64,000 bases of DNA, taken from the NCBI RefSeq assembly GCF_003751945.1, contig NZ_RJKL01000001.1, positions 2,480,001 to 2,544,000 of the forward strand, in the 5' to 3' direction. The stretch is from Couchioplanes caeruleus (GTDB lineage: Bacteria; Actinomycetota; Actinomycetes; Mycobacteriales; Micromonosporaceae). Numbering within the stretch: the first letter of the stretch is position 1; each line of letters opens with the position of its first letter. The position numbers and the translations under genes are program-made. Positions 46,633 to 61,921 of the stretch are shown piece by piece. The notes beneath the pieces are model-generated. The model saw only the letters and a program-made list of their open reading frames with translations, was not told where the DNA came from and searched no databases.

Positions 46633-48420
46633 TCAGAAGACCGGGACTCCCTCGCGGACCAGGCGCCAGTTCGGCGTGAAGAAGTCCGCCGGGTTGATCT
46701 CGCCCTTGGCCTGGGCCCAGTCGATGAGGAGCTGGCGGATCTCCTGCTGGGCGTTGTAGACCTGCTCCTTCACGATGCCCGGGAAGTTGCCGCCGCCGCT
46801 GCGCCGGTAGTTGTTCACCGCCACCACGAAGCGGGCGTCCGCCGCCACCGGGGCGCCGGCGATGTCGAGGCGGGTGATGCGCGAGCCGACCGGCTTGCTG
46901 ATGTCGATGTCGTAGTCGACGCCCGAGAACACGTCGTAGTTGTAGTCGGGCACCGCCGGGTCGTTGATCGTCGCCGGGTCCGGGGTTCCGCCGACCGGCA
47001 GCGTCACGAAGTACCGGGCCGAGAACTCCAGGTACGTCCGCAGCTCCGCGCCCGTGAGCACGACCGCTTCGAGCGTGTTGTCGTAGATGTACAGCCCGGC
47101 CACGTCCTTGATCTTGACGTCGCCCTTCGGGAAGACCGCCGTGCGGCTGAACGGCGCCGTGATCGACAGCACCGGCAGCGACGCGTGCGGGGTGCCGGCC
47201 AGCGCCGCGGTCACCGTGTCCGTCTGCACCTTGTTGATGTAGTCGAGGATCGCCGTGTCCTTGTGCCGCGACTCGGCGGCGGACAGCTCCTCGGTGGACG
47301 TCGCGACGACCTGGTTGACGTACGCGACGGTCTTGTTGTGCTGTGACCGCACCGCCGCGAGCACCTTCGGGTCCTCGGCGATGGTGTTGGTGTTGAGCGA
47401 CTCCGCCTTCTTCTCCGTGATGGTCCACCGGCCGCGCTCGCGGACCAGCGTGAAGTCCATCCGGGTGAGCCGCTGGCCCCACTTCGACGGCTCGGCGAGC
47501 AGCACCTGCGCGCCCGTCTGCGTGTTCGTCACGAAGCGCTGCGCGACTTCGCGGTGCGCGTGGCCGAAGAGGATCGCGTCGATGCCCGGGACCTGCTCGG
47601 CGATCAGCGCGCTCGGGTTCTCGATCGGCAGCTCGGGACCGTAGCTGCTGGTGCCGCTGTCGCCGCCGTGCGCGGAGATCAGCACGAGGTCGGCGCCGCG
47701 GGCACGCATGACCGGCACCCACGTGGCCGCCGTCTCGATCATGTCCTTGAAGACGAGCTTGCCCTCCACGTTGGCCTTGTCCCAGATGGCCACGCCCGGG
47801 TTGGTGAGACCCAGGATGCCCACGCGCAGGGTCGGCGCGCCCGGGCCCGGGCAGACCTTCTTGATCACGTACGGGGTGAAGGCAGGCCGCCCGGTCTTCG
47901 CGTCGACGGCGTTGGCCGCGAGCGCCGGGAAGCCGAGCTGGCGGATCCACAGGTGGAGCAGGGGCAGGCCGTAGTTGAACTCGTGGTTGCCCAGCGTGAC
48001 GGCGTCGTAATGCAGGACGTTCATCGCCCGCGCCATCGGGTGCCGCTCGCCGGTCTCGGTGATCGGCTCCTGCTTCGCGTAGTACGTGGCCAGCGGCGTG
48101 CCCTGGATCGTGTCGCCGGCGTCGAGCACCAGCGTCGCCTTGCCCCGCCGCTCGGCGCGGATCCGGTTGACCAGCGCGGCCAGCTTGGCGACGCCGACGT
48201 CGTTGTGCGCGCTGTCGTCGTACTCGAGATCCTTGTAGTAGTCCCAGTTGTAGACGTTGCCGTGGGTGTCGGACGTGCCGAGCACCGTCAGGTCGTATGT
48301 CTTGGCGCGGGGGCCGCCGGTGTGTGCGTCGGCGGCGCCGGAGGCGACGACGGGTGCGGCCGCACCGACGGCGGCAGCGGCGAGCACGCTGCGCCGCGAG
48401 ACGCCTGCGGGAAGGGTCAT
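46633..48420 (-). CDS. Tat-exported 5'-nucleotidase / cyclic-phosphodiesterase
   Basis: A 595-aa protein starting MTLPAGVSRRSVLAAAAVGA, a Tat signal with SRRSVL. Residues about 40-285 are a metallophosphatase ('LGTSDTHGNVYNWDY', 'LDAGDTIQGTPL', 'TLGNHEFNYGLP', 'ISAHGGD', 'LFGHAHREVAQ'), and about 330-560 the C-terminal 5_nucleotid domain ('VAVNNYRRSGGGNFPG'). It hydrolyses extracellular nucleotides to salvage nucleosides. The start at 48420 is preferred since the Tat motif begins there. Confidence 0.92.
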   Translation of the reverse strand: MTLPAGVSRRSVLAAAAVGAAAPVVASGAADAHTGGPRAKTYDLTVLGTSDTHGNVYNWDYYKDLEYDDSAHNDVGVAKLAALVNRIRAERRGKATLVLDAGDTIQGTPLATYYAKQEPITETGERHPMARAMNVLHYDAVTLGNHEFNYGLPLLHLWIRQLGFPALAANAVDAKTGRPAFTPYVIKKVCPGPGAPTLRVGILGLTNPGVAIWDKANVEGKLVFKDMIETAATWVPVMRARGADLVLISAHGGDSGTSSYGPELPIENPSALIAEQVPGIDAILFGHAHREVAQRFVTNTQTGAQVLLAEPSKWGQRLTRMDFTLVRERGRWTITEKKAESLNTNTIAEDPKVLAAVRSQHNKTVAYVNQVVATSTEELSAAESRHKDTAILDYINKVQTDTVTAALAGTPHASLPVLSITAPFSRTAVFPKGDVKIKDVAGLYIYDNTLEAVVLTGAELRTYLEFSARYFVTLPVGGTPDPATINDPAVPDYNYDVFSGVDYDIDISKPVGSRITRLDIAGAPVAADARFVVAVNNYRRSGGGNFPGIVKEQVYNAQQEIRQLLIDWAQAKGEINPADFFTPNWRLVREGVPVF

Positions 48421-48507
48421 GACGAGCCTTTCGGAGAAATTTCCGGGCGCCTCGTGGGCGCCCACCGACGCACCATAACCGTCGATGCCCGACGACCAGC
48501 AGGGACG

Positions 48508-51500
48508 TCACTGCGTGCCGAGCGCCAACAGACCTCGGTCCAGGCCGACGATCAGGACATCTCCGACGTACGCGCACGCCAGAGCGCGGTGGTGCACCGG
48601 GATGATGCGCAGCAGCCGGCCCGTCCCGGCGTCCCAGATCCGCACGGTGCGGTCGAGGCTGGCCGAGGCCAGGGCGGCACGGCCCGCGAACCGCATCGGG
48701 CAGACCCCGGTGACCGCGGCCGTGTGCCCGGTCAGCACTCCGCGGGGAGTGAGGCCGGTCAGGTCCCAGAGCCGGACGGTCCGGTCGGCGCCCGCGGACA
48801 CCAGGATCTCCCGGCCGGCGAGCGGGAAGCAGGCCAGGGCGTTGACCGCGTCGTGGTGCCCCTGCCGCTCGGTGAGCAGTTCCCCCGCCGGATCCCAGAG
48901 CCGCAGCATGCCGTTCTTGTCCGCCGAGACGAGCAGGTCGTGGGCGGCGGCGAGCGCGGTGACCCAGGTAGCGTGCCCGAGCAGCGGCCGGACGACGTCG
49001 CGGTGCAGGTCCCAGACCCGGACGATGAGGTCGTCGGCGCCCGACGCCAGCAGCGCGCCGACGCCGCGGACCGCGTTGACCCGCTCGTGATGTCCCTTCA
49101 ACTCCCGGTAGAGCTGGCCGTGGTCGACGTCCCAGATCCGGACGGCGCGGTCCTCGCTGGACACTGCGATGAGGCGGCGCTCGTCGTCGGCCACGGCGGT
49201 CACATCCGTGACCGTCGTCCCGTACGCGACGAGGGCGAGCCGCTCCTCTCCGGTCGACGGCTCCCACAACCGGACCGTGCCGTCGCCGCCGGTGGAGGCG
49301 ACCAGGGTGCCGTCCGCCGCCGGGATCGCGGCCAGCGCGCCGACCGCGCCGAGCCGGCCGCCGTCCATCACCGTCTCGGCCCGGCCGGTGGCCGGGTCCC
49401 AGAGCCGGACGGTGCCGTCGTCCCCGGCCGTGGCCAGCAGGTTGCGGTCGCCGACCGGCAGCTCGCAGATGGCGCGGATCCAGCTCGCGTACCCCTCGAT
49501 GGGCTGCCGCGACCGGCCGGTGTGCATGTCCCAGAGGCGGATCGTGCCGTCCTCGTCGGTGGCCGCGAGCAGCAGGGCGTCGTCCGCCTCCAGGGTGCAC
49601 AGGTCGGTGAGCGGGCCGGCCTGGGTGTCGAACACGGCGACCGCCTCGGTCCAGCGCGCGTCCCAGAACCTGACGGTGCCGTCGTAGCCGGCGGAGGCCA
49701 CCATGTCGCGGACCGGGTACAAAGTGGTCACCCAGCCCGTGTGCCCGGCGAACGTCGCGATCTGAGCGCCGGTCGCCGGATCCCAGAGCCGCACCGTGCC
49801 GTCGAACCCGGCGGAGGCCACGAACCGGCCGGCCCGGCAGACCGCGGTGACCCAGCCGGTGTGTCCCTCCAGCGTACGGATCAGGTCGCCGGTGGCCGGA
49901 TCCCAGAGCCGGACCGTACGGTCGTCGCTGCCGGAGACGAGCAGCTCGTGGCCGTCCGGCAGCACGACCGTGCAGAGGTTGCGCACCCAGTCGCGGTGGC
50001 CGGTGAGCGTACGGACGAGCCGGCAGCCCCGGGGATCCCACAGCTTGATCGTCCGGTCATGGCTGGCCGTGGCCAGCAGGTGCACGTCGCCCACCCGGAC
50101 CGCGGCGAGTCCCCGGACGCAGTCGTCGTGGCAGTCGATGACGTGCTCGGTCTGGCTGGTCAGCGGGTCCCAGAGCCGCACCGTGCCGTCGTCGGCGGCG
50201 GAGGCGAGCATGCTGCGTCCGTCCACCGCGAGGGCGGCGACGTCGTAGACGGCCTCCGAGTGTCCCTCCAGGACCGTGCGCTCGAGGCGCCTCGGCGTGC
50301 GCGCCCAGCGGGCCGCGTAGGGGGCTCCGGGCACCGGTCGCAGCCCACCGGGCAGCGCGTCGATCTTCTCCACCACGGAGAACAGCGCGGCCCGCTCCAG
50401 CGCGGGGGCCCGCAGGGCTTGCGGCGTGCGCTGCAACAGTTGCGCGCGGGCGGCGCCGAGCTCCGTGCGGGCGGCATCGGCGGCGGGCAACAGCCGGTCG
50501 AGATGGGCGTGCAGCACGTAGCCGTCGTCGGCGAGCAGGTCGTCGACCAGGCCGGTACGGGCCGCGTGCCGCGGAAGCGCCCGGAGGAGGTATTCCGGCG
50601 CGGCGGCCCAGCCCGCGGTCCTCGCGTACCGCAGCCAGGCCGCGACGATCCGGCTCTCCTCCCGCTCCTTCCCGTCGGCGAGCAGTGCCTCGTTGAGCGC
50701 CTGGTGGAAGAGCCGGTAGGTGGGCGCCTCGGCGGTGCCGCTCTCCACCAGGAAGTTCGCGGCGGACGTCCGCGCGAAGAACGTCAGCTCCTCCTCGGTG
50801 GCCCGGCCGCCGAGCGCCGCGGCGGCGACCTGCCAGAGGCTGATGGGCAGCCCGGGCGTCTCGGCGTGGGCGAGGGCGGTCAGCGCCAGCCGGGCCGGCG
50901 CCCCTCCCGCGGCGGGCAGGCCGTCGACATAGCGGTCCAGCGCGTCGGCGACCGTCGCGGAGAAGGTGACCTCGTCGGGGTGGGCCGGGCGGGCGTCGCG
51001 CAGGCCCCGGGCGCGGGCGACCAGGCCGGCGACGAGGAAGTTGCCCTGCGAGAGCACGGCGATCCGGCGGGCCACCGGCTCGGCGAGCCGCTCGTCCGCG
51101 TACGGGTTCCCGGGCCGTTCCGCGCCGGCGAGGGTGGCGAGCGCATAGCCGGCGAGGTCGGACTCGGAGAAGTACTGCGCGGCGTCCAGGTCGACGACCT
51201 CGGCGGCGGGGCCGAACTCCGCCAGCAGGTCGCCGTGGTCGTCGGCCCGCCGGGTGCCGACCACCACCTGGACGCCGAGCGGCGCGAGGTGGCGGGTCAG
51301 CGGCAGGACGACGTCGCGGACGAGCCGGCGCGCCTGGGCCGGCGACACGGCCTCGTCCAGGGCGTCGACGACGAGGTTGAACCGCGCCGGGCGCCGGGTC
51401 AGCCGCTCGCGCAGGGCCGGCATCAGGTCGGCCGGATCCGCCGGCAGGCCGACGGCCGCCGCCCGGGCGATCTCGGCGGCGATCTCCAGCGCGGTCTTGC

Positions 51501-52467
51501 CCTTGGCGTGCACGGCGCAGGAGACCGAGCCGGGCGTCGCCGCCTCGGCGGTGTCGTCGGTCGGCAGCGCCGCCCGGGCGCCGGGATCCGCGGTGGTGAC
51601 GATCCGGCCCAGCACGGCGGACTTCCCGACACCGGGCGATCCGGTCACGACCAGCGGCCGGTCGTGGGCCTCGGGCGCGTCCAGCCAGGACACGATGGTG
51701 CGCAGAGCCGCCGTACGCCCGCGGAAGCGCGAGCCGCGCTCGGTGTGCACGGCGACGCCGCGGGCCCGCGGCAGCCAGTGGCGCCGGGCCTCCTCGTCGT
51801 TCTCCAGCGCCCAGCCCCAGGCCGCGAGGGCCGCATCGTCGGCGTCCCCGGCCTGCCACTGGGCGAGCATCGAGAGCTTCAGCTCCGGTAACTGCTCGTC
51901 GGCGTGGTGCAGGGTGAGCGCATATCCGTCGCCGTCGCCGGCCGCGACGACCAGCCCCACGACGGCGTCGTACTCCTCCGACCACAACGCGCCGCCGCTG
52001 AAGCCGGTGCGCAGGCCGGGGGCGGACTCGCTGGCCAGGTGGATCCGGCCGTAGGTGAGCGGATCGCCGACCACGCCCTCGGCCGAGCCGCCGTGCTCGG
52101 CGCCGTCGGGGAAGCCGAAGGCCCACCAGGAACGGCCGCTGAGCTCGGCGGGCGGCGCGCAGCGCAACCGGGCGGGCCGCACCGACGGCGGCACCGGCTC
52201 GGCGAGCTCGAGGAGGGCGACGTCGACGTTCTTGACGTCCTCGCCGGTGTGGGCGAGCACCGCCACGCGACGTTCGCCGTATCCGACGCCGGGCGCCTTG
52301 GGGAACGCGATCCAGATCTCGCCGAGCACCTCGCCGTCCCGGCGCAGGACGTGCGCGCAGGTCAGCACCTGGTTGCGGTCGATCACCACGCCGGTGCCGA
52401 GCGGGTGGCAGTCGTCCGGGCCCGCGTGGATGGCCACCGTCCAGGTGTCGACGGGCGCCCTGGTCAC
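48508..52467 (-). CDS. Trypsin-like protease + STAND NTPase + 14-repeat WD40 protein
   Basis: A 1319-aa cytoplasmic protein. Residues 1-205 are a trypsin-fold domain with an intact triad: H39 ('LTCAHV'), D82 ('NVDVALLEL') and S157 ('RTGFSGGALW'). Residues 245-600 are a STAND NTPase with Walker A 'GSPGVGKS' (276-283) and Walker B 'NLVVDALDEA' (D368, D371-E372). A helical linker leads to WD40 repeats from 732 to the end; I count 14 'VRLWD'-type units, enough for two seven-blade propellers. Such sensor-switch-protease proteins are typical of conflict systems: the propeller may sense a target and activate the protease. It follows the Trypco1 gene by 12 bp. Confidence 0.9.
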   Translation of the reverse strand: MTRAPVDTWTVAIHAGPDDCHPLGTGVVIDRNQVLTCAHVLRRDGEVLGEIWIAFPKAPGVGYGERRVAVLAHTGEDVKNVDVALLELAEPVPPSVRPARLRCAPPAELSGRSWWAFGFPDGAEHGGSAEGVVGDPLTYGRIHLASESAPGLRTGFSGGALWSEEYDAVVGLVVAAGDGDGYALTLHHADEQLPELKLSMLAQWQAGDADDAALAAWGWALENDEEARRHWLPRARGVAVHTERGSRFRGRTAALRTIVSWLDAPEAHDRPLVVTGSPGVGKSAVLGRIVTTADPGARAALPTDDTAEAATPGSVSCAVHAKGKTALEIAAEIARAAAVGLPADPADLMPALRERLTRRPARFNLVVDALDEAVSPAQARRLVRDVVLPLTRHLAPLGVQVVVGTRRADDHGDLLAEFGPAAEVVDLDAAQYFSESDLAGYALATLAGAERPGNPYADERLAEPVARRIAVLSQGNFLVAGLVARARGLRDARPAHPDEVTFSATVADALDRYVDGLPAAGGAPARLALTALAHAETPGLPISLWQVAAAALGGRATEEELTFFARTSAANFLVESGTAEAPTYRLFHQALNEALLADGKEREESRIVAAWLRYARTAGWAAAPEYLLRALPRHAARTGLVDDLLADDGYVLHAHLDRLLPAADAARTELGAARAQLLQRTPQALRAPALERAALFSVVEKIDALPGGLRPVPGAPYAARWARTPRRLERTVLEGHSEAVYDVAALAVDGRSMLASAADDGTVRLWDPLTSQTEHVIDCHDDCVRGLAAVRVGDVHLLATASHDRTIKLWDPRGCRLVRTLTGHRDWVRNLCTVVLPDGHELLVSGSDDRTVRLWDPATGDLIRTLEGHTGWVTAVCRAGRFVASAGFDGTVRLWDPATGAQIATFAGHTGWVTTLYPVRDMVASAGYDGTVRFWDARWTEAVAVFDTQAGPLTDLCTLEADDALLLAATDEDGTIRLWDMHTGRSRQPIEGYASWIRAICELPVGDRNLLATAGDDGTVRLWDPATGRAETVMDGGRLGAVGALAAIPAADGTLVASTGGDGTVRLWEPSTGEERLALVAYGTTVTDVTAVADDERRLIAVSSEDRAVRIWDVDHGQLYRELKGHHERVNAVRGVGALLASGADDLIVRVWDLHRDVVRPLLGHATWVTALAAAHDLLVSADKNGMLRLWDPAGELLTERQGHHDAVNALACFPLAGREILVSAGADRTVRLWDLTGLTPRGVLTGHTAAVTGVCPMRFAGRAALASASLDRTVRIWDAGTGRLLRIIPVHHRALACAYVGDVLIVGLDRGLLALGTQ

Positions 52468-52479
52468 GACGGGCTCCCG

Positions 52480-52794
52480 TCAGCCCCGGCCGCCGAGGGG
52501 CTCCGGCCGCCAGCTCATGGTGACCTCGAAGTTCGCCTCCGTCGCCGCCTTGGCCACCACCCAGTTGGCCGTGCCGGTCACCTTGATCCCGAACTTGACC
52601 TCGACCGAGTCGGGGGCCATGTCACGGACCTGGTCCAGCAACACCTTGGCCGCCGCCAACGCCGGCCCCACGGACTCCTTGACCGTTCCGGCGATGTCAC
52701 CGGCGCCGGCCGGCCGGAAGCCGGCGACCGGTGCGATCTCGATCTGGGCGACCGTCTCGGCGTCGACGCGATAACGGACGACCTCGGACGACAT
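52480..52794 (-). CDS. Trypco1 (CU044_2847-like) small protein
   Basis: A 104-aa protein with 'YRVDAETVAQIEIAPVAGF', then 'VKESVGPALAAAKVLLDQVR', 'VEVKFGIKVTGTANWVVAKA' and 'EANFEVTMSWRPEPLGG', the pattern of the trypsin-co-occurring domain 1 family found beside trypsin genes in actinobacteria. GGAGG lies nine bases before the ATG at 52794. It precedes the trypsin-STAND-WD40 gene by 12 bp and is surely in one operon. Likely substrate, inhibitor or regulator of the protease; which one is inference. Confidence 0.8.
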   Translation of the reverse strand: MSSEVVRYRVDAETVAQIEIAPVAGFRPAGAGDIAGTVKESVGPALAAAKVLLDQVRDMAPDSVEVKFGIKVTGTANWVVAKAATEANFEVTMSWRPEPLGGRG

Positions 52795-52929
52795 CGACGC
52801 CAGCCTCCAGCGGGAAAATGACTTCACAATCCGGCGGCGCACCGGCACCGCAGTGCAATGTCGCACGTCCCGCACATGGGGGCAATACACCTACCAAGAT
52901 CCCTTTTCGAAGAATGGCGAACATATGTG

Positions 52930-52983
52930 CGACAGCGGCGGTGGACCAGCATTTCCGAAGATCGTCGATCATGTCCGCTGTCG
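52930..52983. promoter_or_regulatory. Nested dyads in the divergent gap of the conflict locus
   Basis: CGACAGCGG (52930-52938) and CCGCTGTCG (52975-52983) are inverted; between them GATCG-T-CGATC (52960-52970) is a perfect palindrome, and ATTTCCGAA occurs at 52951 and 52985. The whole gap is 52795-53077. The winged-helix protein encoded downstream is a candidate binder. Confidence 0.45.
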
Positions 52984-53077
52984 GATTTCCGAATCCACAC
53001 AGTGGACCTTGCCACCACCGCCGTACCTCGGCAGAATCGGGCCCGACGCGTGGACCCCCTCCCTCAAGGAGCGCCGA

Positions 53078-53707
53078 ATGCCGGACGACAAGCTCACGCT
53101 CGTCGAGACCTGTGCGCTGCTGACCCTGCTCAAGGAAGGGCAGGAGATAGCCAATGCGGATCTTAAGAATGAGCGCGGATTCGAGCTCAAGTCTCCCCAC
53201 CGGAATCGCCTCGAAAAGCTTGGGCTCATCGACGTCCGCAAGGAGAAGAACCGGATCTTCCTGGGCGTGAGCGAGAAAGGCTGGGCCGGCGCGCTCGAGG
53301 CCATCGGCAGTGTTCCACCGGCCCGTTCCGGCTATGCGGGAGCGACCATATATGCGCAGGTGGCGGCCATCCGGCAATTCCTGGAGACGTCCGGGCTGGC
53401 GCTGTCCGAGTTCTACGCACCCGCACCGCGACGACCCGCCGCCGAGCCCGGGGAGGTCGTCGCGCTGGTGCGCAAGGCCTACGACGAGCTCGCGCAGGCA
53501 CCCGGCGACGCCGTAAGGCTGGCACGGATCCGCGCCGCCCTGCCGGAGATAGGCCGGGACGACCTCGACGCGGCCCTGATCGCCCTGCACCGCGAGGACG
53601 GCGTGCGGGTCTTCGCCGAGGCGAACCAGAAGACCCTCACCGACGCGGACCGGTCCGCCGCGGTCAGCATCGGCAACCAGGACAAGCATCTGCTGCAGAT
53701 CAGATGA
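53078..53707 (+). CDS. Winged-helix protein coupled to the dual ATPase
   Basis: A 209-aa protein. Residues about 5-70 look like a winged helix ('TLVETCALLTLLKEGQEIAN', 'SPHRNRLEKLGLIDVRKEK'), the middle 80-150 is helical/linker and the C-terminus ends 'NQDKHLLQIR'. AAGGAG sits six bases before the ATG at 53078. Its stop overlaps the next start (ATGA). It probably directs the ATPase to DNA or regulates the locus; neither is proven. Confidence 0.75.
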   Translation: MPDDKLTLVETCALLTLLKEGQEIANADLKNERGFELKSPHRNRLEKLGLIDVRKEKNRIFLGVSEKGWAGALEAIGSVPPARSGYAGATIYAQVAAIRQFLETSGLALSEFYAPAPRRPAAEPGEVVALVRKAYDELAQAPGDAVRLARIRAALPEIGRDDLDAALIALHREDGVRVFAEANQKTLTDADRSAAVSIGNQDKHLLQIR

Positions 53708-56700
53708 TCAGCGAGGCCGAGCGGAGGGCGCTCTCCGCATTGCGGTTCAACTGGGCGCCGACCGCCGACGACGTCTGGCGGCCGCCGCCCTTCCACGTCG
53801 CCGGGCTGCACCGGGCCGCGCTGGACCTGGTGCTGCAGGGTTTCGCCGAGGCGGGCGAGCAGCAGGAGTCGAGCCCGGTCGGGGTGGCCCTGCTGGGCGA
53901 GCGCGGCACCGGCAAGACGCATCTGCTCGGCGCCGTCCGCGAGCAGGTGCAGGCCCGGGACGGCTACTTCTTCCTGATCAGCCTGCTCGACGCCAGCGCC
54001 TTCTGGAGCAGCGCGGCGCTGTCCGTCGTGGAGGGCCTGACCCGGGTCCCCGAGCAGGGTGAGAGCCAGCTCGTGGTCTTCCTGCGCCGGCTCGCGGATT
54101 CCTGCGGCGCCCCCCGGGGCGTACGGCGGGCGGTCACCGGTGCGACGGCGGTGAACCGGGCCACCCTCGACGCCTTCATCGACCTGCTGCGCAAGCGCAA
54201 CCGGCAGGTCGGGGTGGAGGCTCAGGACACCGCGCGGGCCCTGGTGCTGCACGCCGCCGAGGACCCGCGTGCGCAGGACGTCGGCTACGAGTTCCTCTGC
54301 TCGAACGACGAGGTGGAGCCGGGCGAGCGGGCGGGATGGGGCATGCGCCGCGGACGGCGCTCCGCGCAGGAGGTCGTCCGTGACATCTCCCGCCTGCTCG
54401 CCCTCACCGGTCCCGCGGTGATCGCCGTCGACCAGATCGACGCGCTCGTGCACCAGTCCGCGACGTCCAGCGAGTCCGCGACGTCCAGCGGGTCCGCGAC
54501 GTCCAGCGGGTCCGCGAACCGTCCGGACTGGAGCGGTTCGCTGCTGCTGGAACACATTGCGGGCGGCCTGATGGCGCTGCGGGAGACGACGCGGCGCACC
54601 CTGTCCGTGGTGAGCTGCCTGCCGACGGTGTGGGAGCTGGTCAAGTCCACCGCGACCAATACGGTCCAAGACCGGTTCCGCGAGGCGATCGACCTCAAGG
54701 AGATACCCACCGCCGAGATCGGGCACGAGCTGGTGGCCCGGCGCTTCGCCGCGAAGTTCGCCGAGGCCGGGTTCACCCCGCCGCACCCGACGTGGCCCGT
54801 GGCGAGCGCCGCGTTCGCGGAGGCGGTGCAGTTCACGCCGCGCGAGCTGCTGAGGACCGTCGACAATCATGTACGGGAATGCCTGCGCGCCGGCGAGGTG
54901 CACGAGCTGGACCATCTGTTGCACCAGCACCGCGGGGCACCCGCCGCCGCGGCCGAGCCGGCGCGGATCGCCGACGACGACCGGCGGATGTTCGACTCTC
55001 GCTACGCCGAACTACTCGCGGCGGCGAACCCCGGCCGGGCCCTCGATCCGGCCACCGAGGACGAGACCGTGCCCGCTCTGCTGCGCGCCGGGCTCGAGGC
55101 CTGGATCGGCGAACGGGACGAGCCGGAGGGCACCTTCGGCGTCGACCCTCCACCGGGCGCCAAGCCGGCGCTGCACGCGCGGCTGCGCCGCAGCCTGGAC
55201 GACCGGACCGAGGACGAGGCCCACTGGGCGTTCCGGGCGATCGCCCATCCCAACCCCATCGCCGTGCTCAACCGCATCCGCAACGCGCACACCGCGGCCG
55301 GACTGACCGAGGGCCAGAGCCGGCGACGGCTGGTGCTGCTGCGCAACGAACCGTTCTCCAAAGGCGCCCGCACTCAGGACGCGCTCAAGGCGCTCATCGC
55401 GGCGGGCGGCTCGTGGACGGCCTTTCCCGAGTCCGACGTGCTCAGGCTGCTGGCCCTGCGCGGCCTGCTCGACGAGTACGGCTACGACAAGCTCCAGCCG
55501 TGGCTGCGCGAACGCCGCCCCACGTCCTCGATCGAGTTCCTCCGCACGACGTTCGAGGCGGTCACGCCGGCGGACGCCGACGGGAACGACACGACCGGGC
55601 CGCCGGGCCGGATCGTGCTGGGCGCCGCGGTGGGCACCGGCGATGCCGTCGGCGTGGAGCCGGCGGCGCTGCGCAAACACACCGCCATTTTCGCCGGATC
55701 CGGGTCGGGCAAGACCGTGCTGATCCGCCGGCTCGTCGAGGAGTGCGCGCTGCAGGGCGTGTCCGCGATCGTGCTCGACCCCAACAACGACCTCTCCCGG
55801 CTCGGCGACCCCTGGCCGGAACCGCCGCCCGGCTGGGACGACGCCGACACCGCCCGCTCCGCCGACTATCTGCAGAGCACCGACGTGGTGGTCTGGACGC
55901 CACGCCTGCAGAGCGGGCGCCCGCTGAGCTTCCAGCCGTTGCCCGACTTCACCGAGATGCTGGACGACCCGGACGTCTTCGCGGCGGGCATCGACTCGGC
56001 GGTCGCCGCGCTCGCCCCGCGGGCCAAGGTCGACGGCTCCACCGGCAGGGCGCAGCTCGGCCAGGCCGTGCTGCGGGAGGCGCTGATCGGCTACGCGCGT
56101 ACGGGACCCGGCGATCTGAAGGACTTCATCGGGCTCCTCGGCGACCTGCCCGAAGACCTGAGCCGGATCGAGGACGCGCCGCGGATCGCCGCCGGGATGG
56201 CGCAGTTGCTGACGGCCACGACCGTCAACGATCCGCTGTTCGGCGGGCGGGGCGCCCCCACCGATCCCGGCCTGCTGCTGACCCCGCGGCCCGGATACCG
56301 CGCCCGGGTGTCGGTCATCAACTTCGCCGGGCTCACCGACGACGGCCAGCGGCAGAGCTTCGTCAACCAGTTGCAGTTGGCCCTGTTCGCCTGGATCAAG
56401 CGGAACCCCGCCGGCGACCGGCCGCTGGGCGCCCTGTTCGTGATGGACGAGGCGCAGACGCTGGCGCCCTCCGGGCCGATGACGGCCTGCACGCACAGCA
56501 CGCTGGCGCTGGCCTCGCAGGCCCGCAAGTACGGCCTCGGCCTGGTGTTCGCCACCCAGGCTCCCAAGGGCCTGCACAACCGCATCCCCGGCAACGCGGC
56601 GACGCAGTTCTTCGGGCTGCTCAACCACCCGACCCAGATCGCCGCGGCCCGCGAGCTGGCCCGCGCCAAGGGGAGCGACGTTTCCGACATCGCCCGGTTG

Positions 56701-56832
56701 CGGGTGGGTCAGTTCTACGCGGCCATCGAGGGCGGCGAGTTCGTCAAGATGCAGGCGCCGTGGTCGCTGTCGCACCATCCGCAGAGCCCGCCGACGGTCG
56801 AGGAGGTGCTCGAGCGCGCTCGGGAGAGATGA
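53704..56832 (+). CDS. Dual ATPase: AAA/ORC-like N-terminus plus HerA/FtsK-like C-terminus
   Basis: A 1042-aa protein with two NTPase modules. The first has Walker A 'GERGTGKT' (65-72) and Walker B 'AVIAVDQIDAL' (D243), followed by sensor-like 'VVSCLPTVWELV' and a helical region with 'FTPRELLRTVDNHVRE'. The second has Walker A 'GSGSGKT' (665-671), 'IVLDPNNDLSRLG', Walker B 'ALFVMDEAQTLAP' (D915-E916) and 'ARKYGLGLVFATQAPKGLH', typical of HerA/FtsK pumps that move along DNA. A Thr/Ser/Gly repeat interrupts the first module at 252-269. It probably forms a ring that works on DNA in a defence system. Confidence 0.85.
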   Translation: MISEAERRALSALRFNWAPTADDVWRPPPFHVAGLHRAALDLVLQGFAEAGEQQESSPVGVALLGERGTGKTHLLGAVREQVQARDGYFFLISLLDASAFWSSAALSVVEGLTRVPEQGESQLVVFLRRLADSCGAPRGVRRAVTGATAVNRATLDAFIDLLRKRNRQVGVEAQDTARALVLHAAEDPRAQDVGYEFLCSNDEVEPGERAGWGMRRGRRSAQEVVRDISRLLALTGPAVIAVDQIDALVHQSATSSESATSSGSATSSGSANRPDWSGSLLLEHIAGGLMALRETTRRTLSVVSCLPTVWELVKSTATNTVQDRFREAIDLKEIPTAEIGHELVARRFAAKFAEAGFTPPHPTWPVASAAFAEAVQFTPRELLRTVDNHVRECLRAGEVHELDHLLHQHRGAPAAAAEPARIADDDRRMFDSRYAELLAAANPGRALDPATEDETVPALLRAGLEAWIGERDEPEGTFGVDPPPGAKPALHARLRRSLDDRTEDEAHWAFRAIAHPNPIAVLNRIRNAHTAAGLTEGQSRRRLVLLRNEPFSKGARTQDALKALIAAGGSWTAFPESDVLRLLALRGLLDEYGYDKLQPWLRERRPTSSIEFLRTTFEAVTPADADGNDTTGPPGRIVLGAAVGTGDAVGVEPAALRKHTAIFAGSGSGKTVLIRRLVEECALQGVSAIVLDPNNDLSRLGDPWPEPPPGWDDADTARSADYLQSTDVVVWTPRLQSGRPLSFQPLPDFTEMLDDPDVFAAGIDSAVAALAPRAKVDGSTGRAQLGQAVLREALIGYARTGPGDLKDFIGLLGDLPEDLSRIEDAPRIAAGMAQLLTATTVNDPLFGGRGAPTDPGLLLTPRPGYRARVSVINFAGLTDDGQRQSFVNQLQLALFAWIKRNPAGDRPLGALFVMDEAQTLAPSGPMTACTHSTLALASQARKYGLGLVFATQAPKGLHNRIPGNAATQFFGLLNHPTQIAAARELARAKGSDVSDIARLRVGQFYAAIEGGEFVKMQAPWSLSHHPQSPPTVEEVLERARER
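54457..54510 (+). repeat. Three in-frame 18-bp repeats in the dual ATPase gene
   Basis: TCCGCGACGTCCAGCGGG three times (the first with one change), encoding SATSSES then SATSSGS units just after Walker B. Multiples of 3 keep the frame, so copy number could vary without destroying the protein. Confidence 0.8.
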
Positions 56833-56883: not shown

Positions 56884-57708
56884 ATGCCCGCGCAGCCCGA
56901 CCTGCCGCTGCGTCCCATGACGCTCGGTGAGCTGCTGGACGCCGCCATGACCCTGTTGCGGGCCCGGGCGCTGCCCCTGCTGCTCACCGCCGGCGTGCTG
57001 GCGGCGCTCGAGCAGGCCCTGCTCATGCCGCTGCGGCACGCCGCCTCCGCCAGTCCTCCGCTCTACGGGCCGGCGGAGGACGACTTCGAGAGCTGGTGGC
57101 TGCTCGTCGCCGCCGGGTTCGCCACCGAGGGCTTCATCGTCTGCGTGCTCGGCGCGCTCGCCGCCGCGGCCGCGGGACCCGCGCTGCTCGGGCGGCCGGT
57201 GCGCCACCGGGAGCTGTGGGCCCGGACCCGCCCGGTCCCCACGCTGCTCGCGGCCCTCGCGCTGGGCGCCGCCTGCGGGGTCGCCGCGTTCGCCGGTTTC
57301 GTCGGCTGGATCGTCGTGTACGGGTTCTTCGGCCTGGTCAGCGCCGTCATCGTGATCGAACGGTCGGGGTCGTTCCTGCGCTCGGCGCGGCTCGCCGCCC
57401 GCGGCGGGATGCGGGGCGTGTGGACGCGGCTCACGGCGTACCTGACCTGGCTGGCGGTGCGGGTCGTGCTCGGCGCCGGCTGGGTCGCCATCTTCGCGAC
57501 GGTCACCGGGGACCGGCCGGGCTGGCTCGACTGGATCACGCCGGTCGCGTGGGGGGCCGCCAACGCGGTGGCGTACGCCGCGCTGGGATGCGTCGACGCC
57601 GTGCTGCTGCTGGAGACGCGGATCCGTACGGAAGGCCTCGACATCGCCGTCGCCCGGATCCGCAGCCGGGGCGGGGACCCGGCCGCCGCGCTGGTGCACG
57701 TGCCGTGA
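56884..57708 (+). CDS. Polytopic membrane protein, first gene of the MoxR operon
   Basis: A 274-aa protein with about six hydrophobic segments ('LPLLLTAGVLAALEQALLMP', 'LLVAAGFATEGFIVCVLGAL', 'FVGWIVVYGFFGLVSAVIVI'), and the amphipathic 'MTLGELLDAAMTLLRARAL' start common to this class of DUF-type membrane proteins in actinobacterial MoxR clusters. No catalytic motif is seen. GTGA overlaps it with the next gene. A leaderless -10 precedes it. Confidence 0.8.
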   Translation: MPAQPDLPLRPMTLGELLDAAMTLLRARALPLLLTAGVLAALEQALLMPLRHAASASPPLYGPAEDDFESWWLLVAAGFATEGFIVCVLGALAAAAAGPALLGRPVRHRELWARTRPVPTLLAALALGAACGVAAFAGFVGWIVVYGFFGLVSAVIVIERSGSFLRSARLAARGGMRGVWTRLTAYLTWLAVRVVLGAGWVAIFATVTGDRPGWLDWITPVAWGAANAVAYAALGCVDAVLLLETRIRTEGLDIAVARIRSRGGDPAAALVHVP

Positions 57709-58304
57709 CCCGCGTGTGGGACGAGTTCGCGGCGTCGGTCTTCGACTGGATCCCGCCGTCGCTGCTGCTGCTGATCCTGCTCGCGGCGGCCGGGCTGATC
57801 GGTGCGCTCTGGTACTGGTTCCCGGCCTGGGTGCCGCGACGAATGCCCCGGCTGCGGCTGCCCCGGCTCCGGATGCCCCGGTGGCGGCTGCCGCGATGGC
57901 GCCGGCCGCGGTTCTCCCGGCGCCGGCGGAGCACCGCCGCCGGCGCCTCCTCGGAGGCCACGACCGCGTTCGAGCCCAGCGTCGTGCTGAGCGACGGCAC
58001 GCTGCTGGCCGACCGCCTCGCCGCCGAGGGCCGCTACGCGGAGGCGGTCCGGCAGCGGCTGCGCGACATCGTCGGTGATCTCACCGCCGCCGGCGTCATC
58101 TCGCCGCTGCCCGGCACGACCGCCGCGGAGGTCGCGGCGGCGGCCGCCGTCCAGCGTCCGGCGGTGGCGGCCCCGCTCGGCGGCGCGACCGAGCTGTTCT
58201 CCCAGATCTGGTACGGCAACCGCCCGGCGGACCGCGCCCACGACGAGCACATGCGCGCCCTGACCGGCGAGGTCCGCGCCCGGATGAGCGGTGGTACGCC
58301 GTGA
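57705..58304 (+). CDS. DUF4129 family protein with a basic repeat segment
   Basis: A 199-aa protein: one transmembrane helix ('PPSLLLLILLAAAGLIGALW'), then a striking basic tract with five-residue units 'MPRLRLPRLRMPRWRLPRW' (about 43-65), and the DUF4129 C-terminal domain ('EGRYAEAVRQRLRDIVGDL', 'PGTTAAEVAAAAAVQ'). Its GTG overlaps the preceding stop and its stop overlaps DUF4350's start. DUF4129 proteins co-occur with MoxR and are likely chaperoned or protease-linked; role uncertain. Confidence 0.82.
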   Translation: MTRVWDEFAASVFDWIPPSLLLLILLAAAGLIGALWYWFPAWVPRRMPRLRLPRLRMPRWRLPRWRRPRFSRRRRSTAAGASSEATTAFEPSVVLSDGTLLADRLAAEGRYAEAVRQRLRDIVGDLTAAGVISPLPGTTAAEVAAAAAVQRPAVAAPLGGATELFSQIWYGNRPADRAHDEHMRALTGEVRARMSGGTP

Positions 58305-59619
58305 AGAACCTCCGCCGCCTGCGCCTGATCCTGCCCTTCGCCGTGGTGCTCGGGCTCGCCACGCTCACCGGCATCGCGCACGCCGTGCAGCAGAGCGACC
58401 CCACCGACGCCTCGTTCCTCTCCCCCACCAGCCAGGAAGGCGACGGCGCGAAGCTGCTCGCGGACAGGTTGACCCGGCTCGGCGTCACCGTGGACGTCCG
58501 TACCCGCAGCGACGAGGCCCTGTCCGCGGTCGCCACCGGCGGCGCGACGACCCTCTTCGTGACCACGCCGGAGTTGGTGCATCCCGCCTATCTGCGCACG
58601 TTCGCCGCGCTGCCGTCGCAGGTCCGGATCGTCCTGGTGGCACCCGGCCCGAACGAGCTGAACGACGCGCGGCTCGGCGTCGTCGCCCGCGGGCCGCGCT
58701 GGACCGCCGCCGCGCCCCCGCCCGGTTGCGCGGTGGAGCCCGCCGTCGCGGGCGGCCCGGCGGCGGCGCTGCGCTGGCAGTACGAGGCCACCCAGCTCTC
58801 GCCACTGAGCTGCTACGACGGCGGGCTCGTCGAGCTGGAGCCCCACGGGTTCGGCCCGGTGACCCTGATCGGCGCGGCGGATCCGTTCCGCAACGACCGC
58901 GCCGGCGAGCACGGCAATGGGCGGCTCGCCTCCGGCCTGCTCTCCCGGGCTCCCCGGGTCGTCTGGCTCGACCTGCACGAGCGCGAGTCGGCCCCGGCAC
59001 CCTCCGCGCCTGCGCCCGGCACCGGGACCCCGGACAGAACCGGTGAACCCGGTGATTCCGGCGAGGACGGCTCGGGACCCGGCGGCGGGCGGTCCGACGA
59101 CGAGCAGCCCGGCGAAGCGCCGCCCGGCGAAGCGGGCGACGACAGCGGGGCGGCGGCCGACAACCCGCTGGCCCGGGCCTTCCCGCCGGGGGTGTGGGCG
59201 GCACTGGCGCTGCTGGTACTCGCGGCAATCGCGCTGGCCCTGGCGTCGGCCCGGCGGCTGGGCGCGCCCGTCGCCGAGCCGCTTCCGGCGCGGGTGCGGG
59301 CCGCGGAGACGGTCCGCGGCCTCGGCGGCCTGTACCGCAGGGCGGGCGCGCGCGGCGCGTCGCTGAGGACCGTACAGTCGGCGGCACGGACCCGGTTGAT
59401 CGAGCACTTCGACCTGCCGGGCGACACCGACGTCGACGAGCTGGCCGCACGGGTGGCGGCGGACACCGGGCAGCCGGAGGACGACATCCGGCACGTGCTC
59501 GGCGGCGGGGTCGAGGACAGCGACGAGGAGCTGGTCCGCGCCGCGACCGCCGTGCAGGAGCTGGTCCGGCTCGTGACCGGGCGGCAGAACTGGCAACACA
59601 GCGACGAGGGGAATCTGAC

Positions 59620-59623
<4 letters not shown>
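58301..59623 (+). CDS. DUF4350 family membrane protein
   Basis: A 440-aa protein with an N-terminal signal/anchor ('LRLILPFAVVLGLATLTG'), an extracytoplasmic DUF4350 domain (about 40-235: 'LLADRLTRLGVTVDVRTRSD', 'TLFVTTPELVHPAYLRTFAA'), a Gly/Pro/Asp-rich linker, a transmembrane helix ('GVWAALALLVLAAIALALAS', about 298-320) and a cytoplasmic tail. Overlapped at both ends by GTGA. Its pairing with DUF4129, MoxR and DUF58 is the usual actinobacterial arrangement. Confidence 0.85.
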
Positions 59624-60594
<971 letters not shown>

Positions 60595-60601
60595 GCCGGC
60601 C

Positions 60602-61921
60602 GTGGTCACCAGGCGCTTCGCGCTGCTGCTGGCGCTGGGCGTTCCGCTGCCGGCGCTGCTGCCCTCGCCCTGGCTGCTGACCCTCGCCGTCGCCGGCCTG
60701 GCTATCGGCGCGGCGGTGCTGGACGTGCTGGTCGCGGCCCCGCTGACCGGCGTGACGCTGCGGCGCCACGGCGACGAGACGGTGTGGCTCGGCGAGACGG
60801 CGACCACGACCCTGACCGTCGCGAACACCTCCGGGCGGCCGATGTGGCTGCGGCTGCGGGACCGCTGGGTGCCGTCGGCCGGCGCGGATCGCACCGCGCA
60901 CCGGCTCAACCTCCTCGCCGGCGAGGAGCGGGAGGTCACCACCACGCTGACCCCGACGCGGCACGGCGACCGGGCCGCGGTACGGGTGACGCTGCGCTCG
61001 CACGGGCCGCTGGGGCTCGCGTACCGGCAGCGCCGGCAGCGGTGGAACGAGGCCGTGACGCCGGCGTGGACGTTGCGGGTGCTGCCGCGCTTCCCGTCCC
61101 GGCGGCTGCTGCCGGAGAAGCTGGCGAAGTTGCGCGTCTTCGACGGCGCCGTGGTCACCCGCGGGCGGGGGCAGGGCACCGAGTTCGACGTGCTGCGCGA
61201 GTACGTCGTCGGCGACGATGTGCGCTCGATCGACTGGCGGGCCTCCGCGCGGACGCATGACGTGGTGGTCCGGACCTGGCGCCCGGAGCGCGACCGCCGC
61301 GTGGTGTGCGTGCTGGACACCGGCCGCACCTCGGCGGCGCGGATCGGCGACGAGCCCCGGCTGGACGCCGCGATCGACGCGGCCCTGCTGCTGGCCGTGC
61401 TGGCGTCGAAGGCCGACGACCGGGTCGATCTGCTCGCGGTGGACACCGCCGTACGCGCCAAGGTCGAGGGCGGCGGCCACCGCACCAAGCTGCCGCGGCT
61501 GATCAGCTCGCTGGCTGCGCTGGAGCCGGCCCTGGTGGAGACCGACTTCGGCCTGGCCGCCGGCGATCTGCTGCGCCGCGGCCACAAGCGGGCCCTCGTG
61601 GTGATCTTCTCGGCGCTGGACGCCGCGCCCATCGTCGAGGGTCTGCTGCCGCTGCTGTCCCGGCTGACCACCCGGCACCGGGTGGTGCTGGCCAGCGTGC
61701 GCGACCCGGAGACCGCCGAGTTGGCGCGGCTGCCGGCGAGCGGTGCGACCGCGGAGGACGTCCATCTCGCCGCGGCCGCCGAGCTGGCGCTGGCGGAACG
61801 CGACCGGGTCCGGGCCCTGCTCACCCAGCAGGGTGTCATCGTGGTCGACGAGCCCCGCGAGTCGTTCGCCTCCAAGGTCTGCGACGTCTACCTCATGCTG
61901 AAGGCGGCCGGCCGGTTGTGA
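60602..61921 (+). CDS. DUF58 family protein
   Basis: A 439-aa protein with two N-terminal hydrophobic segments, a beta-rich middle and a vWA-like C-terminus. The DUF58 signature is present ('YVVGDDVRSIDWRASAR'), and the vWA-like core reads 'VCVLDTGRTSAARI' and 'ALLLAVLASKADDRVDLLAV'. It is the standard partner of MoxR, seven bases downstream of its stop. The pair is thought to act in cell-envelope maintenance; no direct evidence here. Confidence 0.88.
   Translation: MVTRRFALLLALGVPLPALLPSPWLLTLAVAGLAIGAAVLDVLVAAPLTGVTLRRHGDETVWLGETATTTLTVANTSGRPMWLRLRDRWVPSAGADRTAHRLNLLAGEEREVTTTLTPTRHGDRAAVRVTLRSHGPLGLAYRQRRQRWNEAVTPAWTLRVLPRFPSRRLLPEKLAKLRVFDGAVVTRGRGQGTEFDVLREYVVGDDVRSIDWRASARTHDVVVRTWRPERDRRVVCVLDTGRTSAARIGDEPRLDAAIDAALLLAVLASKADDRVDLLAVDTAVRAKVEGGGHRTKLPRLISSLAALEPALVETDFGLAAGDLLRRGHKRALVVIFSALDAAPIVEGLLPLLSRLTTRHRVVLASVRDPETAELARLPASGATAEDVHLAAAAELALAERDRVRALLTQQGVIVVDEPRESFASKVCDVYLMLKAAGRL

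Follow-up and report, generated by a model that had tools for sequence, protein, structure and literature searches.

Neighborhoods combining an ORC/CDC6 ATPase, an inactive and an active restriction endonuclease (REase), a HerA/FtsK motor, and a winged helix-turn-helix (wHTH) domain have been predicted to counter invaders as 'HerA/FtsK capture systems' (PMC10853773; Rakesh, Aravind, Krishnan 2024). As set out in the main text of that paper, such systems would catch the DNA of invaders while it is being segregated, transferred, or packaged; the inactive REase lies between the AAA core and a C-terminal wHTH, and an active REase is 'usually' found in the neighborhood. The main text of a 2026 BREX paper (PMC12839542) repeats the theme. 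Trypsin-like peptidases accompanied by Trypco1 (trypsin-co-occurring domain 1) are described elsewhere, in vWA-MoxR ternary systems and as neighbors in conflict systems, according to the main text of PMC7159879 (Kaur et al. 2020). Here we analyze a 64,000-nucleotide stretch of Couchioplanes caeruleus (the window, in whose coordinates positions are given; L and G numbers label the loci and genomes compared with it) in which a trypsin-STAND-WD40 protease and Trypco1 are joined to a core made of a winged-helix (WH) protein and an AAA-HerA chain. We consider it probable that these four genes are a counter-invader cassette, directed against phages or plasmids, in which a DNA-engaging pump would have a protease, and not a nuclease, at its side.

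That trypsin, Trypco1, WH, and AAA-HerA form a unit is best supported by their insertion as one block; in soil bacteria the four genes move together. The block lies between a 5′-nucleotidase gene to the left of trypsin (46633-48465) and a gene to the right of HerA (56884-57708), 8.4 kb apart. Among 60 genomes searched, 24 have the right-hand gene, and in nine of these both flanking genes are close together: the window's own genome and G017 carry the block between them, while G030, G012, G001, G006, G025, G018, and G005 have empty sites with flank matches only 57-163 bp apart (the flanking genes are not adjacent in the other 15 genomes, which are hence uninformative). In the comparison with G030, whose flanks are 95.6% and 90.0% identical, homology ends at 48488 and restarts at 56821, and the intervening insert holds the four genes and little else. 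The original prediction had described a possibly undescribed two-gene defense pair. Models and profiles bear out its anatomy: the genes do overlap by ATGA, encode a winged-helix protein and a single chain with an AAA module, putatively ORC/STAND-like, and a HerA motor, and contain no nuclease in either product, so that the DNA-binding partner, the double ATPase, and the defense-like character all stand. Its suggestion that the neighboring trypsin might be the effector gains weight from the four-gene insertion, which also means that the pair is part of a larger cassette; and 'undescribed' was too strong, as the main text of PMC10853773 predicted the ORC/CDC6-HerA/FtsK-wHTH-REase class in 2024.

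The core belongs to a family whose partner gene varies. We compared 80 named loci (flanks up to 10 kb), 22 further loci, and the window; their genes were predicted with an in-house caller, grouped into clusters, and searched with profiles made for this analysis. An initial count of 104 HerA matches in 103 loci gave nuclease (55), trypsin (13), an HTH-NTPase-TPR-like protein (6), DUF4365 with a partner (3), others (20), a contig end (2), and no WH directly before (5). The tree and the effector count use 102 HerA rows, leaving out the HerA-less L144 and L145 (AAA proteins under 900 amino acids); with an effector counted if it lies within three genes of the HerA gene, 13 rows have trypsin, six the HTH-NTPase-TPR-like partner (weak HTH, NTPase, and TPR likeness), three DUF4365 with its partner, 22 none known, and two are unreadable. 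Nuclease genes, whose presence in homologous loci the original prediction had raised as a question, account for 56 of the 102. In the first 81 loci the WH gene stands directly before the HerA gene in 79, and the gene ahead of WH is variable. The nuclease, an N-domain fused to DUF559 (2e-11 to 4e-13 in six family members scanned), is encoded by a gene overlapping WH in 34 of 43 cases; D270, E281, D283, H287, R299, and D300 (L057 numbering) show no variation in the 27 members aligned out of 43, and the nuclease profile finds 3hrl in the PDB at 4.4e-12, the next match being a mobile-intron protein at 0.013. Two of these nucleases carry an N-terminal TIR domain (L133, 9197-11170, minus strand; L141, 3941-6094, plus strand; TIR_2 5.5e-34 and 1.4e-33). 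The slot before the core is occupied in L123, L131, and L134 by a DUF4365 protein and a 335-366-residue partner, two genes corresponding to PADLOC PDC-M02A (best 6.9e-61 to 1e-100) and PDC-M02B (best 2.6e-69 to 4.8e-141). A nuclease-WH-HerA operon is also found on a Methylobacterium megaplasmid (L126); at E<=0.001 its HerA protein finds 275 relatives, and named ones among the best 120 of the 275 are mostly from Methylobacterium/Methylorubrum. We conclude that the HerA core is a constant unit with an exchangeable effector, and that nuclease and trypsin partners exclude each other.

The trypsin-type loci form a clade. In a FastTree phylogeny (1033 columns), the 13 trypsin-type rows group with L053, a 14th member whose flank is cut by a contig end, at 100% local support and among nuclease-type rows. 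The trypsin gene stands beside the core in all 13 tree members with a readable flank and in four further genomes (L184-L187), 17 of 17 in total, and the 13 loci occupy about 11 distinct sites judged by their outer flanks. When whole genomes were searched with the nuclease profile, none of 12 trypsin-type genomes yielded a full-length nuclease gene (five have only matches to the DUF559 end, elsewhere); 11 of 11 genomes, selected as positive controls for a nuclease already seen in their loci, yielded it at the core. The window's block likewise holds no active REase, and its genome has no match to the relatives' nuclease profile. The position of the clade in the tree, which is unrooted and has some long branches, suggests that the nuclease is the older effector and was replaced here; the clade would then amount to an experiment of nature, a protease module having taken the place of a nuclease. 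Within it, loss of Trypco1 is paired with loss of the protease active site. The catalytic triad is present in 14 of the 17 trypsin proteins, and all 14 loci have Trypco1. In L047 (Pro, Ala), L049 (Pro, Thr), and L187 (Arg, Gly), His39 and Ser157 are replaced, and Trypco1 was absent by profile search in all three and by tblastn in L047 and L049 as well. Because L049 and L187 group as sisters on the tree, apart from L047, the pairing represents two events, not three. It makes the role of Trypco1 directly testable.

The anatomy of the cassette is collected in Table 1. The trypsin protein matches Trypsin_2 (6.3e-13), AAA_16 (9.8e-8), and nSTAND1 (1.3e-7) in a profile scan, and contains 13 WD40 stretches; its triad and Walker residues were aligned in 13 members and then in four more, and its three other match places in its own genome involve WD40 residues only. 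In trypsin-type loci the Trypco1 gene usually lies at the 5′ side of the trypsin gene. Residues 2-106 of WH resemble MarR-type winged helices by model comparison, and the second unit is read from secondary structure. Calmodulins came up when the PDB was searched by sequence with the WH profile (best 9.2e-5); we set them aside as spurious because the WH model displays winged helices.

Table 1. Positions of the cassette, its genes, and their parts in the window
Feature	Coordinates	Strand	Remarks
Whole inserted cassette	48489..56820	.	~8.33 kb; HerA gene itself extends to 56832
Trypsin - STAND NTPase - WD40 protein, 1319 aa	48508..52467	-	Triad H39, D82, S157; Walker A K282, Walker B D368
Trypco1 protein, 104 aa	52480..52794	-	PF19493 3e-18 on longer open reading frame 52480-52890; NCBIfam CU044_2847 3.9e-18
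Promoter-like element TTGCCA-17-CAGAAT	53009..53037	+	Upstream of winged-helix gene
WH protein, two winged-helix units, 209 aa	53078..53707	+	AlphaFold2 (AF2) predicted local distance difference test (pLDDT) 94.2; conserved family
AAA - middle domain - HerA chain, 1042 aa	53704..56832	+	Overlaps WH gene by ATGA
N-terminal AAA module, residues ~56-396	53869..54891	+	Walker A K71/T72; Walker B D243-Q244-I-D246
Middle alpha/beta domain, residues ~424-620	54973..55563	+	Secondary structure of model only
HerA motor domain, residues 632-1033	55597..56802	+	Walker A K670/T671; Walker B D915/E916

The AAA module matches AAA_22 above the cut-off and an ORC-CDC6-like profile at 15.2 bits (27 required); the predicted structure has a helical insert ahead of Walker B, and a search of 60 genomes with PF24389 was no help in classifying the module, its short matches lying close to the profile start. 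Among the 102 aligned rows, D243 is present in all, and K71 and Q244 each in 101 with one gap. The Gln at the usual position of the Walker B Glu could be taken to mean an AAA module dead for hydrolysis, a claim we do not make: in STAND-type motifs a later Asp may serve in Walker B, D246 may do so here, and we therefore do not call the module dead despite Q244. The HerA residues K670, T671, D915, and E916 are intact in 102 of 102 rows. The middle domain, judged by its model, is possibly an inactive REase.

Several observations lie beside this account. A short in-frame repeat (ATSSxS units, 54455-54525) falls in a low-confidence AAA loop near residues 252-271. The nuclease-WH-HerA operons of L125 and L129 lie between rpsQ and rplN, interrupting a ribosomal protein cluster (by annotation in L125, by sequence likeness in L129). 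L142 and L143 encode long AAA-HerA variants (1447 and 1412 amino acids) with no adjacent WH gene, next to protein-kinase-like genes; L144 and L145 (581 and 619 amino acids) match the N-terminal part only, and the former is preceded by a WH gene. Downstream of the cassette and outside the insertion, the genes at 56884-61921 encode DUF4350 and DUF58 proteins and, presumably, judging from its sequence, a MoxR-like ATPase.

Taken as a counter-invader cassette, the four genes suggest the following division of labor. WH would recognize or hold DNA; the AAA-HerA chain would assemble on double-stranded DNA, with AAA loading, placing, or gating the complex or ring; and HerA, by analogy with HerA systems of solved structure, would form a ring that pumps double-stranded DNA. 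In many relatives the weapon would be a nuclease whose gene immediately precedes the core (DUF559, less often DUF4365) and which would cut DNA. In the trypsin clade, from which the nuclease would have been lost, the trypsin-STAND-WD40 protease, normally with Trypco1, would be the effector and do both sensing and killing: the WD40/NTPase part may recognize the invader, alone or through the DNA-bound core, leading to oligomerization, release of the protease, and protein cleavage, with Trypco1 perhaps a dedicated partner of the protease, whether inhibitor, chaperone, or substrate. More tentatively, and with more doubt than confidence, we suggest that the DNA-bound WH/AAA-HerA complex itself triggers or localizes the trypsin-STAND-WD40 protein, so that invader DNA would be met with proteolysis and not with DNA cleavage. 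If this were true, a single HerA core family would exchange nuclease, TIR-nuclease, and protease weapons.

We wish to stress the observations that weigh against this interpretation: i) L047, L049, and L187 keep the block though the protease looks dead, and therefore proteolysis is not the whole function there; ii) 22 of the 102 rows, 14 of them mycobacterial, have no known effector within three genes; iii) divergence is correlated between trypsin and HerA (r 0.85) as between WH and HerA (0.76), which may merely reflect shared descent; iv) no homologue was found in phage or viral collections; and v) defense families are not generally enriched around the core. For the last point, 139 of 431 neighbor genes from 61 non-redundant HerA rows excluding the window were scanned with PADLOC at E<=1e-20 (145 were drawn; the six not scanned stem from four different L142 genes, of which two had been drawn twice and two have starts resembling protein kinases), with 139 of the 231 genes called in 20 regions chosen by us as controls. 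Among the families listed (the first 25 of 37 for neighbors and of 30 for controls), the neighbors include four kinase-like genes of generic PD-T4-6/mad6 type and one LmuB (L108), and the controls mad3 (3), kinase (1), and one each of WYL, IetA, and subtilase; we therefore claim no defense island. Individual homologues do adjoin defense genes, namely PDC-M02A/B as described above and Lamassu LmuA and LmuB, which lie divergently beside the WH/HerA core, with E from 6.3e-156 to 4.3e-174, in both L114 (3406-7348, minus strand) and L108 (3414-7366, minus strand), so that the worry of the original prediction that homologues might never be near defense genes is answered in part, in single loci and not as a general trend. 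Our confidence in the cassette is limited, and in the DNA-triggered protease lower still, because of the missing enrichment, the retained dead proteases, and the mycobacterial loci without effector, and because the defense role is itself something we infer.

The alternative that survives best, which we nevertheless think rather unlikely, is that two independent defense systems have moved together, a trypsin-STAND-WD40/Trypco1 suicide system and a WH/AAA-HerA system for DNA restriction, each working alone. Trypsin-like peptidases neighbor Trypco1 in other conflict systems (main text of PMC7159879), trypsin and Trypco1 are transcribed divergently from WH and HerA as two separate transcription units, and the block is retained where the protease looks dead. 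Against independence stand the lack of a nuclease partner in all 12 trypsin-type genomes, the presence of trypsin in 13 of 13 loci spread over about 11 sites, and the promoter-like element, one of the conserved blocks in the region between the two transcription units: its TTGC...CAGAAT pattern precedes WH in nine of 13 trypsin-type loci and in none of 89 other upstream regions.

A chromosomal function, be it segregation, DNA repair, or sporulation-linked DNA pumping, appears improbable. The homologues are numerous in Micromonosporaceae, and the absence of neighbor enrichment would fit such a role, but their patchy presence argues against the ordinary chromosome maintenance that would have spoken against the original prediction: of 60 same-genus genomes, a set that includes the window's own, 10 have no match and one more has only a trace, several copies occur in some genomes (three full-length copies in G001), and a match at E<=1e-20 occurs in just 32 of 296 class genomes; insertion as a block and nuclease, TIR, and protease partners point the same way. 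Least probable is a mobile element whose pump would serve its own transfer and whose protease would be a maintenance toxin, for although the insertion is clean and conjugation, too, is driven by motors of the HerA fold (VirB4 and TrwB are among the matches), the block's four genes include no recombinase, relaxase, or transposase by Pfam, its ends share no terminal repeats beyond 7 bp direct and 9 bp inverted, phage records hold no homologue, and only three of 72,556 plasmid records do, of which one measures 11.9 Mb and another carries ribosomal protein genes.

The counter-invader cassette can finally be set against described systems. In PADLOC the window's four proteins match no Dnd family; DndH, which carries the HerA domain of DndFGH, is matched by two relatives, only at E 0.01 and 0.024. 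The best PADLOC match of the HerA domain is the MADS gene mad8 (2.4e-17), but no other mad family is matched by the four proteins. HerA-SIR2, HerA-DUF4297, and NurA-HerA, with solved complexes among the matches, also combine a HerA motor with an effector enzyme; they differ in their partner enzymes and in HerA chains of ~410-700 residues among the rows listed, too short to accommodate an additional AAA module as large as this one. PDC-M02, a phage defense candidate, has both its genes before the core in three loci, yet no PDC-M02 family appears in the match lists of the WH and HerA proteins that were tested. The trypsin domain is weakly similar to the proteases Avs1b (9.3e-7) and Lamassu LmuA (4e-4) in PADLOC, while the STAND and WD40 parts are unmatched and the block has no partner genes of those systems. 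The vWA-MoxR systems, as the main text of PMC7159879 presents them, share with the window a trypsin-like peptidase with neighboring Trypco1, but here the pair is joined to a HerA core, and no vWA or MoxR partner is among the four genes of the block, the downstream DUF58 gene lying outside.

The closest relatives remain the HerA/FtsK capture systems, a class already predicted, whereas the literature searched did not yield the protease variant: 'trypsin' and 'protease' do not occur in the main text of PMC10853773, where the sole 'peptidase' is a cell-wall enzyme of another system, nor 'trypsin' in that of PMC12839542, and full-text searches, with subscription papers and supplements mostly outside their scope, gave PMC7159879 only for Trypco1 with HerA and nothing for DUF87 with DUF559. 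In content our nuclease-type operons fit the main-text description of capture systems, with an ORC-like AAA, a HerA/FtsK motor, a wHTH, and a REase in one neighborhood, the ORC-like AAA and the inactive REase being candidates only; their REase is DUF559 or DUF4365. A large family annotated merely as 'ATP-binding', 'DUF87', or 'HerA domain-containing' in the sources seen can thereby be described part by part, as an invariable DNA-handling core whose effector can be exchanged. In the window the HerA/FtsK motor and the wHTH protein are present and the active REase of the neighborhood is absent; compared with the capture systems of PMC10853773 as its main text describes them, AAA and HerA are fused in one chain, the wHTH protein is separate and has two units, and a trypsin-STAND-WD40 protease stands in place of the REase.

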